From positions 1 through 29,076 of IMG/VR virus record IMGVR_UViG_3300030012_001875: a stretch of 29,076 nt of DNA; one strand, 5' to 3'. The position numbers and the translations under genes are program-made. The notes under the pieces are model-generated. The model saw nothing but the letters and a program-made list of their open reading frames with translations, searched no databases and was not told the DNA's origin. This stretch comes from a virus. Positions 12,684 through 18,606 of this stretch are shown in pieces. Positions within the stretch are counted from its first letter, which is position 1. Every line of letters begins with the position of its first letter.

Positions 12684-12807
12684 ATCTGTGAAAAAATGAC
12701 CTCACAGAATCGCTTGTATCGAACGTAAGATATTCAAGTAATACTATACGTCCAAAATCTAACAAAATTGCTTAGAAGCGATATCTGTAGCTCTCACAGC
12801 ATTTAGC
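12684..12807. other. convergent intergenic junction between the two transcription arms
   Basis: 124 bases where plus- and minus-strand transcription meet. TCTGTGA (12685-12691) pairs perfectly with TCACAGA (12702-12708), and ATTGCT (12767-12772) pairs with AGCGAT (12777-12782) through one G-T. Neither is followed by a proper poly-T tract on either strand, so they may act as weak or bidirectional terminators. No promoter, gene or attachment site is seen. Confidence 0.4.
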
Positions 12808-14538
12808 CTATATTGTGTAGATTTTTACTGGTTTTTCCTTACCTTTGACAAGAATAGACTCTAACTCTGTTACTTCACCCTCATATTTGCTGATGGTTGC
12901 CTCACCTATAACTAAATTTTTACCTACTGTTTTACATGAAGACTCTAATCGAGCTGCTAGATTACAAGCATCGCCTAATACACTATATTCAAAACGAGAT
13001 GCACTACCCATATTTCCTGCAACAACTTCTCCAGAATTTATTCCAATACCAATTTCAATATCTAACTGTGCTTCTTGCATTGCGTGTCGTATTTGAAGGG
13101 CTGTCTCAATAGCTTTCTGTTCATGGTTCTCAACATCTACTGGAGCATTCCAAACTGCCATCATAGCATCGCCAATATATTTATCTACCATCCCTTCGTT
13201 AGCTTTGACCGCATCTGCTTGAATAGTTAAAGCTTTGTTCATTATCTCAATAACTTCTTCTGGTTCTAGTTTCTCTGACATAGAAGTAAAACCTCTGACA
13301 TCGGTAAACATTATCGTACAGTTTCTTCGTTCACCACCTAATCTTAATAACTCTGGATTCTTTTGTAGCCTAGCTACTTGTCGAGGGTCAAGATAAGTAG
13401 AAAACTGCTTCTTGATTTGTTGTCTAAGTTTAAACTGAGTTCTAAAGTTTAGATAGAACTGTTGAGCAGCAATCAGAAACAAACTTATTAGAGTCCATGT
13501 AACATCTATTAAAAGATTCTGCTGTATAAAAGACCAACCAAGATAAGCTACTCCACCAAAGATAGTTAAGGCTGAGACTAAGCCTGTAGTAATACCTAAG
13601 AAACCAGTTAAGATAGCCACTAGTAAACCAGCTACTACTAAGATACTTAGTTCGGCAAACAAACGATAGTCCGGTATGTTGGGTGTCTCTAATAAAATAG
13701 ACTCAGCTAGAGCTGCTTGAATTTTATGTGGCTCTAACAAACCCACAGGAGTTGCTAGTTGTCTTTGTATTCCTGCTGCAGTAAAACCAACAAAGACAAA
13801 CTTACCCTGCACATCCATTTCAGTTAGGTTAGTCTCTGGTGTTTCGACCCAACTAATCCATTTCTTACCTGTCGAATCTGTTGGGATAGGCGGTATACCT
13901 TTTACTCTTATCATCTCTATACCATTCTCATTAGTTTTGATTTGATAAGTATTACCACCTCCTAGTATCTTGAGAACTTCTGTACCGAAAGAAGCTACCC
14001 AACCATCTGGAGTTTGTTGGATAAGAGGTATCTGTCTAACTAGGTTATCTATATCAACCGGCACTGACACAGCTCCTTGAGCTGCAGAGTCTTTTAAGAC
14101 TTGGATGTTTTCTAAAAATCCTGAAGCATGTACTAAACTAACATCAGGTCCTAAGATAACTGTCCCGTGTGTCTGTGGATATTTATTATTGTTTACTTCG
14201 GGCATTGCTATGACACTAGGAGCTAGACCAAGCATCTCAGCAAAGGCTTCATCGCCTCCTAGTCTATCAGGATGAGGAAAGAGTATTGTCCAACCAACTC
14301 CTAATGCTCCTTGTTGTAGTAATTTAAGATGAATATCTGCTAAGGTCTGCCGAGGTAAAGGGTAACCGCCTTGCTGGTCTATAAACTCTTCATCAATGTT
14401 AAGGATAGTAAAGTAACCAGTAGGCTCTGGAGTCTTGACAAGGGCATCAAAGGTTTTAAGTCTTAGTATTTCCAAAGGCGGAGCATTAAAGACTAGAGGT
14501 AGTATTAGTAGAAATAAAAGTAAACTCGCCCACTTCAT
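12808..14538 (-). CDS. CHASE2-domain transmembrane class III adenylyl cyclase
   Basis: Predicted inner-membrane receptor cyclase, 576 residues. An N-terminal span (4-19) precedes a periplasmic CHASE2 sensor domain (about 25-285). Three spans follow (about 294-360), then a cytoplasmic linker (QFSTYLDPRQVARL) and the cyclase domain (405-576). Catalytic residues are all visible: metal aspartates D413 (MFTDVRGF) and D457 (GDAMMAVW), adenine-selecting K453 (VDKYIGD) and D523 (VLGDACNLAARLE), and transition-state N526 and R530. This predicts cAMP as product. Bacterial CHASE2-cyclases are often encoded next to FecR-domain genes, as here. ATGA overlap with the gene upstream. An intact receptor cyclase is highly unusual for a phage. 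Confidence 0.93.
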   Translation of the reverse strand: MKWASLLLFLLILPLVFNAPPLEILRLKTFDALVKTPEPTGYFTILNIDEEFIDQQGGYPLPRQTLADIHLKLLQQGALGVGWTILFPHPDRLGGDEAFAEMLGLAPSVIAMPEVNNNKYPQTHGTVILGPDVSLVHASGFLENIQVLKDSAAQGAVSVPVDIDNLVRQIPLIQQTPDGWVASFGTEVLKILGGGNTYQIKTNENGIEMIRVKGIPPIPTDSTGKKWISWVETPETNLTEMDVQGKFVFVGFTAAGIQRQLATPVGLLEPHKIQAALAESILLETPNIPDYRLFAELSILVVAGLLVAILTGFLGITTGLVSALTIFGGVAYLGWSFIQQNLLIDVTWTLISLFLIAAQQFYLNFRTQFKLRQQIKKQFSTYLDPRQVARLQKNPELLRLGGERRNCTIMFTDVRGFTSMSEKLEPEEVIEIMNKALTIQADAVKANEGMVDKYIGDAMMAVWNAPVDVENHEQKAIETALQIRHAMQEAQLDIEIGIGINSGEVVAGNMGSASRFEYSVLGDACNLAARLESSCKTVGKNLVIGEATISKYEGEVTELESILVKGKEKPVKIYTI

Positions 14539-14978
14539 AAGTCACCTGCTTTATGCATGACGTAAAGATTATTGAGCAGTACTAAGCGATACAGAGTATT
14601 GATATTTGTTATCTGTTGAGGAGAAGCATCTCTAATAATCAAATAACTACTAGCACCTTTAAGAACTAGTAACAACTCTAAGGAAGGTTGTTTGGGTAGT
14701 AGAGGATTAGCTTCTAAAGCATAGCCTTTAATATTGACAGCTCTGTGTGTGGTATAGATATCCAAAAGCTGTAAGGCTATAAATTCTTGGTAAGGTTTTT
14801 CTTGTAGTTTAAAATGTAGCTGAGCTTTAGGTAGACTGTAATCTACATAAGCCTCTGGTTTGTTGAGGTAAGGTGCTTTAGTAATCCGCCAATAGATATC
14901 AGGCTTAGCCGGAAGACTGCTTGATAGTAATGGAAGAGTCACTACCGCCATTAAGAGTAATAGTAATTGCTTTGCCAT
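14535..14978 (-). CDS. small membrane protein with signal-like N-terminus (147 aa)
   Basis: Starts MAKQLLLLLMAVVTLPLL, a signal peptide or first span, followed by a short extracytoplasmic segment (KPDIYWRITKAPYLNKPEAY). Three hydrophobic stretches follow near 66-80, 99-115 and 128-142. The motif LLDIYTTHRA with ALEANPLLP resembles small DUF5658-type membrane proteins, which carry a Leu-Asp-x-x-Thr-Thr helix and an E-x-NP turn; this is recall, not a search. It lies between the FecR and cyclase genes, overlapping the first by 74 bases and the second by 4, so it probably belongs to the same membrane complex. Function unknown. Confidence 0.6.
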   Translation of the reverse strand: MAKQLLLLLMAVVTLPLLSSSLPAKPDIYWRITKAPYLNKPEAYVDYSLPKAQLHFKLQEKPYQEFIALQLLDIYTTHRAVNIKGYALEANPLLPKQPSLELLLVLKGASSYLIIRDASPQQITNINTLYRLVLLNNLYVMHKAGDL

Positions 14979-16020
14979 CTTGTATAATTAAAACCTTGTA
15001 ACTGTTGTTCGTATCTAAATCTAATCTTACTGTGTCTTCTACCTGTCTTAAGAAAGTTAGCACTGTGTCAGTAACAAAAGTATTTACCTGTGTGTTAGAG
15101 TCAAAACCAAAAGCTGTGCCTTGAACATTAATGTCACCAGTGTTCAAAACATTTTGTTCTAACTCATCTACTTCCTCTATGATACTCAAGAGGTCTTCTA
15201 AGAAATTTACATCTAAGTAATTGATGTCAAGTTCGGTAAACTCTAGGTTATCTTCTGCTAAGTAGTCTTGTTCTAGTTCATCAAACTCTAAGTAGTCTAT
15301 GTCTAGGATATTATCAGAGCCATCTGTTTGTTCTTCTTCGCTAACAAAGTTTGGGTCTTCCTTTGGTGGATTGACAATCAACATGTTGTCAATAATATCT
15401 AGAGTCAAGTCTAGGATAACAGGACTACTAGGTGCCGACTCAAACAACTCAACTGTAGTAGCTTGATAGGGCTTGTTGAGAACTACTTGTCCTACTAGAG
15501 TAGAAACAACTATCTCACCGGAAGCAATACCGTTCTCATCTGGTAGTAGTATTATCAAAGACCTGCCGAGTTCATCGACAGTAACAGTAAAGTCTGTGCC
15601 TCTAATACCAATGGTAGCACTAGGAGTCTCGATAGATATGTTTTCTTTATTGATAGTAGCTAGTTTGCCACTAATAAACCTAGCTGTGCCACTAGCAAAC
15701 TGTAGAGCCATCTTAGATTTAGATGGGTCAGGGTCATAGATAAACTCATCTATAACTAATTGTGAATGTTCTGTGAGACGGACTTGAGATTCGTCAAGAA
15801 AGGTAATGCCTATCCGACCATTAGAAGTCTCAACATTATCAAAACTATTAATAGCAAAGGAGAGAGCAGCAGCAAAGGGGTCTTGTTCCCTTACTACTCT
15901 CCCTAAGCCTTTTAGTTCTGTTATGCTTCCTATACTAGCAACTTGTGCTGGTGCCGCCATCATTTTGTATGATGCAGACAGTACCACTATTGCCAGTAGA
16001 AATAATCTTAAGCCAATCAC
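14905..16020 (-). CDS. secreted FecR-domain protein with acidic Leu/Asp repeats
   Basis: A signal peptide (1-23, cleaving near MAAPAQ) leads to a FecR domain (about 30-185) with the family signature: VRLTEHSQLVIDEF, ASGTARFISGKL and IETPSATIGIRGTDFTV. A strongly acidic region (about 225-290) has repeats such as DYLEFDEL, DNLEFTEL and NYLDVNFLEDLL. The C-terminus ends in beta strands (AITITLNGGSDSSITIKQ) reminiscent of one curlin repeat. Classical FecR senses iron citrate; stand-alone FecR proteins beside CHASE2 cyclases are thought to form envelope sensors, which fits the neighbour at 12808. The start is GTG 16020, inside the curlin gene (86-base overlap), without a clear ribosome site; internal ATGs at 15963/15960 would lose the signal peptide. 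Confidence 0.82.
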   Translation of the reverse strand: MIGLRLFLLAIVVLSASYKMMAAPAQVASIGSITELKGLGRVVREQDPFAAALSFAINSFDNVETSNGRIGITFLDESQVRLTEHSQLVIDEFIYDPDPSKSKMALQFASGTARFISGKLATINKENISIETPSATIGIRGTDFTVTVDELGRSLIILLPDENGIASGEIVVSTLVGQVVLNKPYQATTVELFESAPSSPVILDLTLDIIDNMLIVNPPKEDPNFVSEEEQTDGSDNILDIDYLEFDELEQDYLAEDNLEFTELDINYLDVNFLEDLLSIIEEVDELEQNVLNTGDINVQGTAFGFDSNTQVNTFVTDTVLTFLRQVEDTVRLDLDTNNSYKVLIIQDGKAITITLNGGSDSSITIKQSSG

Positions 16021-16639
16021 TTGCTAAGGTTGAACTCTGTGTAATATTAAATGCTCGGCTATCCCCTGTTTGGTCTAGATAAAAGTAACCATCAGCATAG
16101 CCACTACCATTGTAGACTAAACTGTTTGAGTCACCATCTATATCTAGATAGGATGTAGCTCCATCGACATCTATTGTGTAGTCTATGGTATTTGAATCAC
16201 CATTGATAACCCAGTCGAGGTCTAAGTATTCTGCTAAAGCATTGGTAGCAATATTTAATTCAAATTCATTGCTTGACCCTGTAACGTCAACATTATAGTT
16301 ACCGCCATCGGCACTATAAGTATCTGTTGGGTCTACTTGAATTTCAAATATATTACTATCACCGTCAAATTCAAAAAAACCTACTAGTGAATCTAGGACA
16401 ATGTCCCCAATAAATTTGTTGGAATCCCCTAATTGATTGATGTCTAAAGTCATAGAACTACCAGCTAATTCTAGAGCAGTCATTTGACCTGAAGCAGCAT
16501 CAAGACCACCAATAAGGTTGGAACCACCTAGCTGTTCAACATCTAAGTTTAAAGTTGCACCAACTTGATTGATGTATATTTCATTATCGGCTTTAACCAT
16601 AAAGCCTAAGAAAGCTAACAATATAATTATTCTATTCAT
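15935..16639 (-). CDS. curlin-repeat-like secreted protein (amyloid fibre subunit candidate)
   Basis: A 234-residue protein with a signal peptide (MNRIIILLAFLGFMVKA) and then about ten curlin-like units centred on G-[DS]-S-N. Examples are INQVGATLNLDVEQ, LDINQLGDSNKF, DGDSNIFEIQV, TGSSNEFELNI, NGDSNTIDYTI, DGDSNSLVYN, DQTGDSRAFNITQ and TGNSGTVCIIQ. The central Gly residues fall at about 27, 38, 60, 71, 93, 121, 147, 169, 192 and 216, spacings mostly near 11 or 22, as in CsgA/CsgB strand-loop-strand repeats. Outer repeats keep the Gln; middle ones replace Gln/Asn by Asp. It would be exported through the CsgG-like pore encoded just upstream (8-base overlap) and may form fibres on the infected cell. 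No CsgE gene is seen. Confidence 0.75.
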   Translation of the reverse strand: MNRIIILLAFLGFMVKADNEIYINQVGATLNLDVEQLGGSNLIGGLDAASGQMTALELAGSSMTLDINQLGDSNKFIGDIVLDSLVGFFEFDGDSNIFEIQVDPTDTYSADGGNYNVDVTGSSNEFELNIATNALAEYLDLDWVINGDSNTIDYTIDVDGATSYLDIDGDSNSLVYNGSGYADGYFYLDQTGDSRAFNITQSSTLASDWLKIISTGNSGTVCIIQNDGGTSTSC

Positions 16640-17450
16640 AACTCCAAAATCTCCTCTCTATTCCTTGTTGTACTATTTCTAGTACACTTGTCTCTATCGC
16701 TTTCTGGAGAGCAATAGATACACTTTCGTTTTGTGTAACACCAGATTCTATTTCTACTAACTCTGTCCCAGCTTCAATAAATCTAAAGACATCGTTAGAG
16801 ACTCCTACAGATAGGATAGTCTTTGATGTTAGTACTTCTATTAATATCTCTCCGGTATTAACAGAAACTAATCGTAAAGATACTGTAACAGTGTCCTCAC
16901 GATACTGACGGCTCATGCCGATACCTAGATATCTAGCACCATTACCACCACTTTTTAGGTTCGTGTCATACGAAATGACCCCACCCTGAACCAGTAGACC
17001 TGCAAAGATAAGAGGGTTTAACTCTGTATTATCTTCAAAGTCTTTACGGGTTGTTCTAATTATTTGTCGTTCTTTAGTTAGGTTATCTAAACCTACTCTC
17101 TCGACAACTGTAAAAAACTGACCATCTGCAGCATGTTTAAAAGCTCTGATAAGTAAGGAATCAGGTGACTGTGTAATAGCAGAACTGAATAAAGCAAAGG
17201 TACTGTTACTCTTTCTTTGCCCTGTTAGGTCTGTGAAGCTATTAGGATAAATAGCAATAGTCGGCTTAAGCTTAGCCGGTCTTAAGTTTTTTAACTCCTC
17301 TGACTGTAACTCTAATACGGTACTTGGTCTTTTCTTTGAATAAGCTCCTATAACATTCTCATCTAGGAGAGAACTATGTCTAAGACTTGAACAACTAGAA
17401 AGTAAAAGAACCGATAGGAACAGTAATCTCTGTAACATTCCCTTCTGCAT
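16632..17450 (-). CDS. csgG: CsgG-family outer-membrane curli secretion pore (lipoprotein)
   Basis: A lipoprotein signal (LLFLSVLLLSSC, lipidated Cys20) is followed by a mature domain with the CsgG landmarks in order: TIAIYPNSFTDLTGQ, VVERVGLDNLTKERQIIR (116-132), GGVISYDTNLKSGGNGARYL, GIGMSRQYREDTVTVSLRLV, VNTGEILIEVLTSKTILS and NDVFRFIE. The length (272) matches E. coli CsgG (277). CsgG forms a nonameric outer-membrane channel for unfolded curlins. In the pore-constriction loop the Tyr/Asn/Phe set of E. coli is only partly kept: GQRK is followed by SNSTFALF, with one extra residue and only the Phe clearly aligned. The start is ATG 17450 or 17438, both inside the csgF gene. Confidence 0.93.
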   Translation of the reverse strand: MQKGMLQRLLFLSVLLLSSCSSLRHSSLLDENVIGAYSKKRPSTVLELQSEELKNLRPAKLKPTIAIYPNSFTDLTGQRKSNSTFALFSSAITQSPDSLLIRAFKHAADGQFFTVVERVGLDNLTKERQIIRTTRKDFEDNTELNPLIFAGLLVQGGVISYDTNLKSGGNGARYLGIGMSRQYREDTVTVSLRLVSVNTGEILIEVLTSKTILSVGVSNDVFRFIEAGTELVEIESGVTQNESVSIALQKAIETSVLEIVQQGIERRFWSYE

Positions 17451-17868
17451 CTGTAATCTTTAATGTAATCATAGTGCCATCAGCACTAACACTGTATTCT
17501 ATGGTGTTACCCATTAGCTCTAAAGTCCCGAAAGTACTTGGGTTTTCACCAAACAAAGCATCTACTAGTTGTCTGGATAGTTGAGCATATATTCTTGATT
17601 CTAAGTTTCTGATAAATCTTGCTAGAGTTGTATTGTCTGCTTCTCTTTCTAGCTCTTCTCGATAAGCTCTGATTTCAGCTTCAATAGCTGCCTTTCTATT
17701 AAACTCTTGATTCTCTATGGTTAGGTAATGAGCTGAGCTATTGATGCCACTAAATGATGGCGACTTAAATTTATGTACTAACTCATCGGCAAAGATATTA
17801 CCGCTAACACTTAACGTCATAACTAAAAACCCTGCAATTAATAGGGTTAGTTCTATAGTTTTTAACAT
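17395..17868 (-). CDS. csgF: CsgF-family curli assembly factor
   Basis: 157 residues. ATG 17868 is chosen because GAGGAG lies just upstream and the product then starts with a clean signal peptide (MLKTIELTLLIAGFLVMTLS, cleaving near FADE); the longer frame from 17904 would put a charged tail before it. The mature N-terminus, VHKFKSPSFSGINSSAHYLT, matches the CsgF motif F-x-F-x-N/S-P-x-F-G/S-G that plugs CsgG. A charged helical middle (AEIRAYREELEREAD) and a beta C-terminus (GNTIEYSVSADGTMITLKIT, EGNVTEITVP) also fit. CsgF extends the CsgG pore and helps nucleate curlin at the surface. The csgF-csgG order is the same as in bacterial curli operons. Confidence 0.9.
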   Translation of the reverse strand: MLKTIELTLLIAGFLVMTLSVSGNIFADELVHKFKSPSFSGINSSAHYLTIENQEFNRKAAIEAEIRAYREELEREADNTTLARFIRNLESRIYAQLSRQLVDALFGENPSTFGTLELMGNTIEYSVSADGTMITLKITDAEGNVTEITVPIGSFTF

Positions 17869-17875
17869 AATCTCC

Positions 17876-18163
17876 TCAATCTTTTCGTTGGTCTTTCTTT
17901 CCATCTGCCCTTGCTAACCTATCTACATCTACAGGTATACCCATAGCTGTGCGACACATTGTGTCTATTCTTATTATATCGTTGTCTATTTGTCTTATCC
18001 TATCTATTAAAGCTACTATCATGCCATGTTGGGTATCTAATTTTTTATGAACATCTGCGATTAAATGATTAAATAGTTTCCAAACCATCCAACCTGCAGC
18101 TACAGCAAAAGCTGCTGGAATTCCAACAGTTTCTAAAATGTCCATCCACGTTCGTGTATTCAT
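17876..18163 (-). CDS. single-span membrane protein, possible holin or lysis accessory (95 aa)
   Basis: One hydrophobic segment (ILETVGIPAAFAVAAGWMVW, about 9-28) is followed by a heptad-like charged region (KKLDTQHGMIVALIDRIRQI) and a basic C-terminus (ARADGKKDQRKD). Small proteins of this shape sit in lysis regions of many phages. It is coupled to the membrane gene before it (shared stop/start base) and its stop overlaps the csgF ribosome site. Holin function is inferred from topology and position only. Confidence 0.5.
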   Translation of the reverse strand: MNTRTWMDILETVGIPAAFAVAAGWMVWKLFNHLIADVHKKLDTQHGMIVALIDRIRQIDNDIIRIDTMCRTAMGIPVDVDRLARADGKKDQRKD

Positions 18164-18606
18164 TATCTACCCTTAACCAAGCTACCACCAAAGTACATAC
18201 CTATAATTGCTGAGACTAAGTTAGTGTCTAGTTGTGTTATTACCAAGCCCTGAAAAGTAACCCATTCAAATATTTCTCTACCTTCTTTAAAGAACCAGAA
18301 GCCCGGGTTCCAGTTAGTGTAACCAACAGTTACAGAGACATCCGGATAGTAGACTGCTACTAGTTTAGGCAGTAACACAATAGCAAAGACTGAAGTCAAA
18401 GCTATGATTCGTCTAGTCCAAGCAAAACCTTTGTCTTTTAAACCGTGGTCTAAGGACTGTTGTCTTTCTTTCATACCAAACTCACCACGAGTTATTAAGA
18501 GCTTTTGTTGTTCTGCTTTAGCTTTTCTACTTTCAGCCCAGACACTCATCAAACCACCAAGGATTGTCGAGGCCAACATAGTTATTATCTCAAAAGGGAA
18601 ACCCAT
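18163..18606 (-). CDS. two- or three-span membrane protein, possible holin (147 aa)
   Basis: An N-terminal hydrophobic stretch (GFPFEIITMLASTILGGLMS) precedes a charged helix (ESRKAKAEQQKLLITRGEF), then a span (TRRIIALTSVFAIVLLPKLV), a periplasm-like aromatic loop (NWNPGFWFFKEGREIFEW) and a final hydrophobic region (TNLVSAIIGMYFGGSLVKG). The arrangement recalls membrane proteins found near lysis genes of marine phages; this is recall, not a search. It is coupled to both neighbours by one-base overlaps. Together with the next gene it is the best holin candidate here. Confidence 0.5.
   Translation of the reverse strand: MGFPFEIITMLASTILGGLMSVWAESRKAKAEQQKLLITRGEFGMKERQQSLDHGLKDKGFAWTRRIIALTSVFAIVLLPKLVAVYYPDVSVTVGYTNWNPGFWFFKEGREIFEWVTFQGLVITQLDTNLVSAIIGMYFGGSLVKGR

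Follow-up and report, generated by a model that had tools for sequence, protein, structure and literature searches.

An IMG/VR virus record of 29 kb (IMGVR_UViG_3300030012_001875; 29,076 nucleotides, hereafter the window) encodes on its minus strand a curli-type secretion module combined with a FecR-domain protein and a CHASE2-containing adenylyl cyclase. The genes run as one co-oriented block in the order P95, csgF-like, csgG-like, curlin-repeat, FecR-domain, SM, and CHASE2 cyclase. Sequence comparisons demonstrate a gene set of fixed order that is conserved among viruses, together with the absence of csgG from the presumed host order. In the reading that we favor, with moderate confidence, these genes make up a transferable module for curli (type VIII) secretion and fiber export that brings its own envelope sensor and is related to an alphaproteobacterial operon.

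Two scans of IMG/VR detected 137 and at least 588 stretches encoding CsgG relatives. As proposed in a preliminary description of this DNA, we searched viral and metagenomic databases for co-occurrence and gene order; loci were chosen by similarity to the window, to the myovirus HTVC008M, and to one HTVC023P-type copy, and the resulting lineage shares are not abundances. The order P95-CsgF-CsgG-curlin-FecR was kept in all 89 viral loci with enough flanking sequence, and the cyclase was also present in 87 of these; some contigs were fetched twice, and in a few myovirus loci the scoring places the second P95 copy after csgF. By lineage, 62 loci were HTVC103P-type, 16 myovirus, and four HTVC023P-type, with seven unassigned, and most podoviral copies fetched were HTVC103P/HTVC115P-type. 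Comparison of the window with its near relatives gave ratios of nonsynonymous to synonymous substitution (dN/dS) of ~0.1 for CsgF, CsgG, curlin, FecR, and cyclase. P95 gave even smaller values wherever both sequences were of the same P95 version. We also checked whether the window might be a chimeric assembly joined at about 17870, or the genes mere chance neighbors. The junction and gene order recur across numerous independent contigs that come from different metagenomes, and the upstream continuity (holin-like gene and large late open reading frame, ORF) recurs likewise, e.g., in contigs L003, L004, L010, L011, and L014; this synteny rules out a chimera and leaves such explanations a negligible probability.

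The six minus-strand ORFs named in the preliminary description lie open at 12808-17904, each at the place it gave, and their identities were borne out by Pfam for CsgG and, above cut-off, for CsgF, FecR, CHASE2, and Guanylate_cyc, and by a family profile for curlin. That gene set was correct but incomplete, since the module includes a seventh gene (17876-18163), and the 147-aa gene is optional. Its end point at 17868 proved to be an internal ATG of CsgF, the ORF itself running to 17904. This ATG is probably the true start, as it gives CsgF a better signal peptide and removes the overlap with the preceding gene.

The CsgG identity is certain on sequence grounds. The protein matches E. coli CsgG structures in the PDB at 8.5e-43, and the lipobox cysteine (Cys20) is invariant (alignment A2). 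A sequence search of the PDB with CsgF gave no match. For the curlin-repeat protein, a single-sequence Pfam search returned chance-level matches only (E 0.11); however, six of 33 homologues matched Pfam Curlin_rpt (best 6.8e-6), and the family profile retrieved a solved curlin-repeat protein, PDB 8c50 (5.9e-5, three stretches). An AlphaFold2 model of this protein was all-beta with evenly spaced strands (pLDDT 83). Profile searches hence placed both genes in the CsgG and curlin-repeat families rather than in unrelated ones. Together, a CsgG lipoprotein pore with a lipobox, CsgF, and a curlin-repeat subunit (the last by its family profile) place the locus among curli, or type VIII secretion, systems, and the curlin-repeat protein may form an extracellular amyloid fiber.

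In class III adenylyl cyclases, two aspartates bind metal, a lysine and a threonine, serine, or aspartate recognize adenine, and an asparagine and an arginine stabilize the transition state. The window cyclase has all six residues (D413, K453, D457, S519, N526, and R530). D413, K453, D457, and R530 are invariant in 82 cyclase sequences and N526 is conserved in 81; the cyclase of the phage Melnitz has lost this transition-state asparagine (N to S). The analysis as a whole supports the earlier proposal of a single co-oriented block in which curli-type export genes are joined by an envelope-anchored cyclase. The AlphaFold2 model of the FecR-domain protein was of low confidence (pLDDT 61). In this protein, the FecR domain alone was matched, following a signal-like helix, with no sign of an anti-sigma N-terminal part, and no sigma factor was found among the scanned window proteins; it is therefore not a classical sensor of the FecI-FecR type. 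The shared ...ITIxQ ends suggested that its C-terminus might be a curlin-like tail, a candidate we rejected because profile comparison was not significant (hhalign probability 1.6%).

Table 1. Module genes and flanking features in the window, listed in order of transcription after the upstream holin-like gene.
Feature	Position	Strand	Support or remark
Holin-like membrane protein	18163..18606	-	61% identity to HTVC103P gp50 (L140 18167-18604); lysis role putative
P95, 95 aa, seventh module gene; predicted one membrane helix and coiled coil (by eye)	17876..18163	-	PHROG 18771
CsgF-like protein	17395..17904	-	Pfam CsgF 4.9e-15; PHROG 35372
CsgG-like outer-membrane secretion pore (predicted), lipobox LSSC	16632..17450	-	Pfam CsgG 1.6e-50
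Curlin-repeat protein; signal peptide; spacing of GxxN motifs mostly 22-28 residues	15935..16639	-	Family profile, alignment A6
Exported FecR-domain protein with a signal helix, the FecR beta domain, a disordered linker, and a beta-structured C-terminal part	14905..16020	-	Pfam FecR 3.7e-11
SM, 147-aa protein, optional	14535..14978	-	No family match
CHASE2-transmembrane-class III adenylyl cyclase	12808..14538	-	Pfam CHASE2 1.5e-30, Guanylate_cyc 2.1e-24
Terminator-like hairpin and T-rich tail	12685..12708	-	End of transcription unit

All 89 loci have a P95 homologue ahead of the csg genes, and P95 is absent from the module-free phages HTVC103P, HTVC115P, and HTVC023P; it was also not seen in three bacterial modules described below. 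Its position is that of a "histidine kinase" (HK), sometimes in two copies, reported ahead of CsgF (PMC9599517), and HTVC008M and Melnitz likewise have two P95 copies. None of 12 P95 homologues matched the HisKA or HATPase kinase domains. We equate P95 with the reported kinase by position alone. SM lies in the slot between FecR and the cyclase. It gave only chance-level Pfam matches (E 0.11), and its homologues occur in 18 of 81 HTVC103P-type loci and in none of the other 63, where FecR and cyclase lie no more than 120 nt apart. In myoviruses, the slot is occupied by a second, larger curlin; in HTVC008M, gp018 (L001 5639-6961, annotated hypothetical) combines a PA14 domain (2.7e-6) with curlin repeats (5.2e-8) and is possibly a fiber subunit with a glycan-binding head. 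One HTVC023P-type branch has another small conserved ORF there (L085 6955-7329, L084 2704-3078; ~106 aa, MSKPTLQKVYEKM...).

The window phage belongs, by sequence, to the HTVC103P/HTVC115P-type podovirus lineage. Its DNA polymerase shares 53% identity with that of HTVC115P and 51% with that of HTVC103P, and its structural and nucleotide genes correspond to those of these phages and share their layout. This group is the HTVC103P type with HMO-2011-type morphogenesis genes (PMC8528129), and the earlier label "T7-like" is thus not borne out. With the longest starts taken, neighboring ORFs of the module overlap by 4-86 nt. The block follows the holin-like gene in the late unit, and the terminator-like hairpin lies 100 nt past the cyclase stop, between two convergent transcription units. 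The holin-like gene itself is, from its HTVC103P counterpart, native to the phage lineage and outside the module. In HTVC115P and HTVC103P, other small genes fill the stretch that separates the large late ORF from the plus-strand replication and nucleotide genes, so the module seems to have been inserted at the convergent site where the late unit ends. Both phages also have genes annotated as toxin-activating lysine acyltransferases (L139 28510-28959 and L140 9458-9907, respectively). G+C content of the module is 36-39%, slightly above that of most surrounding late genes (27-36%).

In trees, HTVC023P-type copies fell at two places within the HTVC103P-type copies. Two separate gains by HTVC023P-type phages are nevertheless not established, since a single clade of these copies was not rejected by the approximately unbiased test (p = 0.066 for CsgG; p = 0.36 for the concatenated proteins). 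A tree in which all phage CsgG form a single clade, with the three bacterial modules outside it, was likewise not rejected (p = 0.30), and so the CsgG tree does not fix which way the module passed between phages and these bacteria. Phage-type modules, complete or in part, also occur on four contigs binned in bacterial metagenome-assembled genomes (MAGs) of Sphingobacteriales, Flavobacteriales, Pelagibacter, and Pirellulales (L151, L150, L161, and L192); of these, L151 resembles a T4-like phage contig misplaced in its bin.

The preliminary description had held that curli export and FecR/CHASE2-cyclase pairs are separate systems in bacteria. This is not general: csgF, csgG, curlin gene(s), FecR, and CHASE2 cyclase stand in one row in three Caulobacterales genomes, namely Hyphomonas sp. 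TMED17 (L152, a 705-kb contig) and two Caulobacteraceae MAGs (L153 and L154). Inspected by eye from their sequences, the ORFs flanking these modules look bacterial rather than phage-like. Such rows are rare in the order. True CsgG (E < 1e-60) occurs in ~42 of 398 Caulobacterales genomes, and among the best 30 CsgG-bearing genomes fetched, the known carriers alone score as phage-type by CsgF. No further bacterial carrier was found in samples of 385 Alphaproteobacteria and 105 Hyphomonas-family genomes.

The cyclase raises the question of what would receive its signal. Among 297 genomes of Pelagibacterales, the presumed host order, csgG was found in one, on a phage-like 3-kb contig. No class III cyclase was detected in 97 Pelagibacterales genomes, HTH_Crp_2 had no match above cut-off in genomes of this order, and no cNMP_binding domain was found in 12 phage records. 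The suggestion that cyclic AMP (cAMP) rewires the host is therefore not supported as far as it would act through CRP, given that no CRP-type receptor was found in this order. Phage cyclases keep their catalytic residues even though the presumed host order, as judged from these searches, lacks a class III cyclase and a CRP-type receptor. The receiver may be of another kind, the route may be non-transcriptional, or the hosts may be unlike the sampled SAR11. Six of the 97 genomes (G811, G831, G841, G847, G857, and G869) share a weak cNMP_binding match of ~28 bits, mostly in one large open frame of 870 aa, and this domain is a possible non-CRP receiver of cAMP. A bolder idea, which we consider rather unlikely, is that the phage supplies a second-messenger circuit to a host order that has neither a cyclase nor a CRP-type receptor. 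The cAMP made by the phage would then act via an unrecognized receptor or a non-transcriptional route, and its action would be coupled to the assembly of a surface amyloid that the phage also encodes.

Under the favored reading of a curli module with its own sensor, the module genes, which close the late transcription unit at its 3' end, would act late in infection. CsgG and CsgF would form an outer-membrane pore without CsgE, and the curlin-repeat protein would leave the periplasm through it to assemble into a surface fiber. The FecR-domain protein, once exported, might act with the periplasmic CHASE2 domain to sense the state of the envelope or fiber and to set the cytoplasmic cyclase; fiber formation and cAMP signaling are both inferred. 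The most likely gain would be altered stickiness of the infected cell, which might hold neighbor cells or released virions near, or shield the cell from other phages. Several observations weigh against this reading. The CsgG constriction has residues other than those of E. coli: in E. coli numbering, the F56 position is a phenylalanine in the window protein, but Y51 and N55 are not conserved. Comparison of the curlin AlphaFold2 model with PDB structures gave no convincing match (best E 0.09), and the host, probably SAR11-like bacteria, is assigned from isolated relatives only. OM43 cells infected with Melnitz did not clump (PMC9004378). Finally, no CsgE match was found among the scanned window proteins. 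CsgC, CsgD, and CsgE are, however, absent from alphaproteobacterial modules too (PMC9599517), so CsgE is non-defining and its lack is no bar to membership in curli or type VIII secretion systems.

An alternative put forward for Melnitz (PMC9004378) is that the CsgG/CsgF pore itself is useful, for nutrient import or for lysis timing in a pinholin- or secretin-like manner, with the other genes regulating it. In the late unit of the window, the module does come after a holin-like gene, and a pore for which no CsgE gate was found may stay open, a point also made in PMC9599517. Yet all 89 full-span loci have a curlin-repeat gene that encodes a signal peptide and is under purifying selection, and in HTVC008M the module lies between a single-stranded DNA-binding/oxygenase gene block and a tail gene, away from lysis genes. 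Melnitz was described as being without fiber genes (PMC9004378); its curlin-repeat genes are, however, present and annotated (gp101 and gp103; L002 4016-6810), and gp103 matches Curlin_rpt above cut-off (1.9e-4), which contradicts that premise. With a curlin gene in every locus, and in Melnitz too, the pore-only explanation is weakened, and we judge it improbable. That myoviruses add a second curlin, fused to PA14 in HTVC008M, likewise argues for an exported fiber or adhesin over a bare pore.

A further alternative takes FecR and the CHASE2 cyclase as the core, i.e., a sensor of envelope stress or superinfection for which the fiber is the sensed ligand and not an adhesin. The close spacing of FecR and cyclase in most HTVC103P-type loci is in line with such a core, as is their company with curli genes in phages and in the three bacteria, and the catalytic residues never decay except for N526 in Melnitz. 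Against this, neither the presumed host order nor the 12 phage records show a cAMP receptor, and we hold this explanation to be quite improbable.

Phages of the ocean's commonest bacteria repeatedly keep a 5-6 kb operon for a secretion system, a fiber, and a cAMP cyclase that the host lacks. In the HTVC103P-type lineage, the cultured module-free SAR11 phages HTVC103P, HTVC104P, and HTVC115P offer a natural comparison, and the bacterial operons provide a cellular counterpart for genetics of FecR, cyclase, and curli. Since a cAMP receptor is missing, what had been a loose account of regulation becomes a question that can be put to the test.

The preliminary description knew of no described full set, a claim that fails against the literature. 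csgF and csgG were reported in pelagimyophages in 2020 (PMC7029224) and in Melnitz in 2022 (PMC9004378), and the set HK-CsgF-CsgG-CsgA/B-FecR-(CsgA/B)-adenylyl cyclase was published for HTVC023P-type podoviruses and myoviruses of SAR11 (PMC9599517, mSystems 2022), with alphaproteobacterial affinity, metatranscriptome expression, and the ideas of sibling capture and superinfection defense; HTVC008M and Melnitz carry it. The window has the gene set and order of that pelagiphage module (short gene called HK, CsgF, CsgG, curlin, FecR, second curlin, cyclase). It differs in having one curlin rather than two, with the optional 147-aa gene in the slot, in the lack of a kinase domain in the gene at the HK position, and in its HTVC103P/HTVC115P-type lineage, used in that paper only as a reference in a PolA tree. 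No report of the module in HTVC103P-type phages was found in the literature searched, most subscription journals lying outside the search; our analysis adds a third phage family to those of the papers found. HTVC008M (gp011-gp019) and the Methylophilales phage Melnitz (gp97-gp104) share P95 (two homologues there), CsgF, CsgG, curlin, FecR, and cyclase with the window, at identities of 48% and 44%, respectively, for CsgG and 35% and 33% for the cyclase. In contrast to the window phage, they are large T4-like myoviruses with a second curlin (with PA14 in HTVC008M) and another genome position, and the Melnitz cyclase is without the transition-state asparagine. The Caulobacterales rows resemble the window in gene order and domain make-up (36-38% identity for the cyclase and 36-40% for FecR), but are cellular, lack P95, and have classic curlin repeats and a cyclase with an extra C-terminal part, in genomes with 4-7 cNMP-binding domain matches each. 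The E. coli curli system (CsgBAC-DEFG) shares CsgG, CsgF, and curlin repeats with the window; CsgE, CsgC, and CsgD were not found in the latter, which has the FecR protein and the cyclase in addition.

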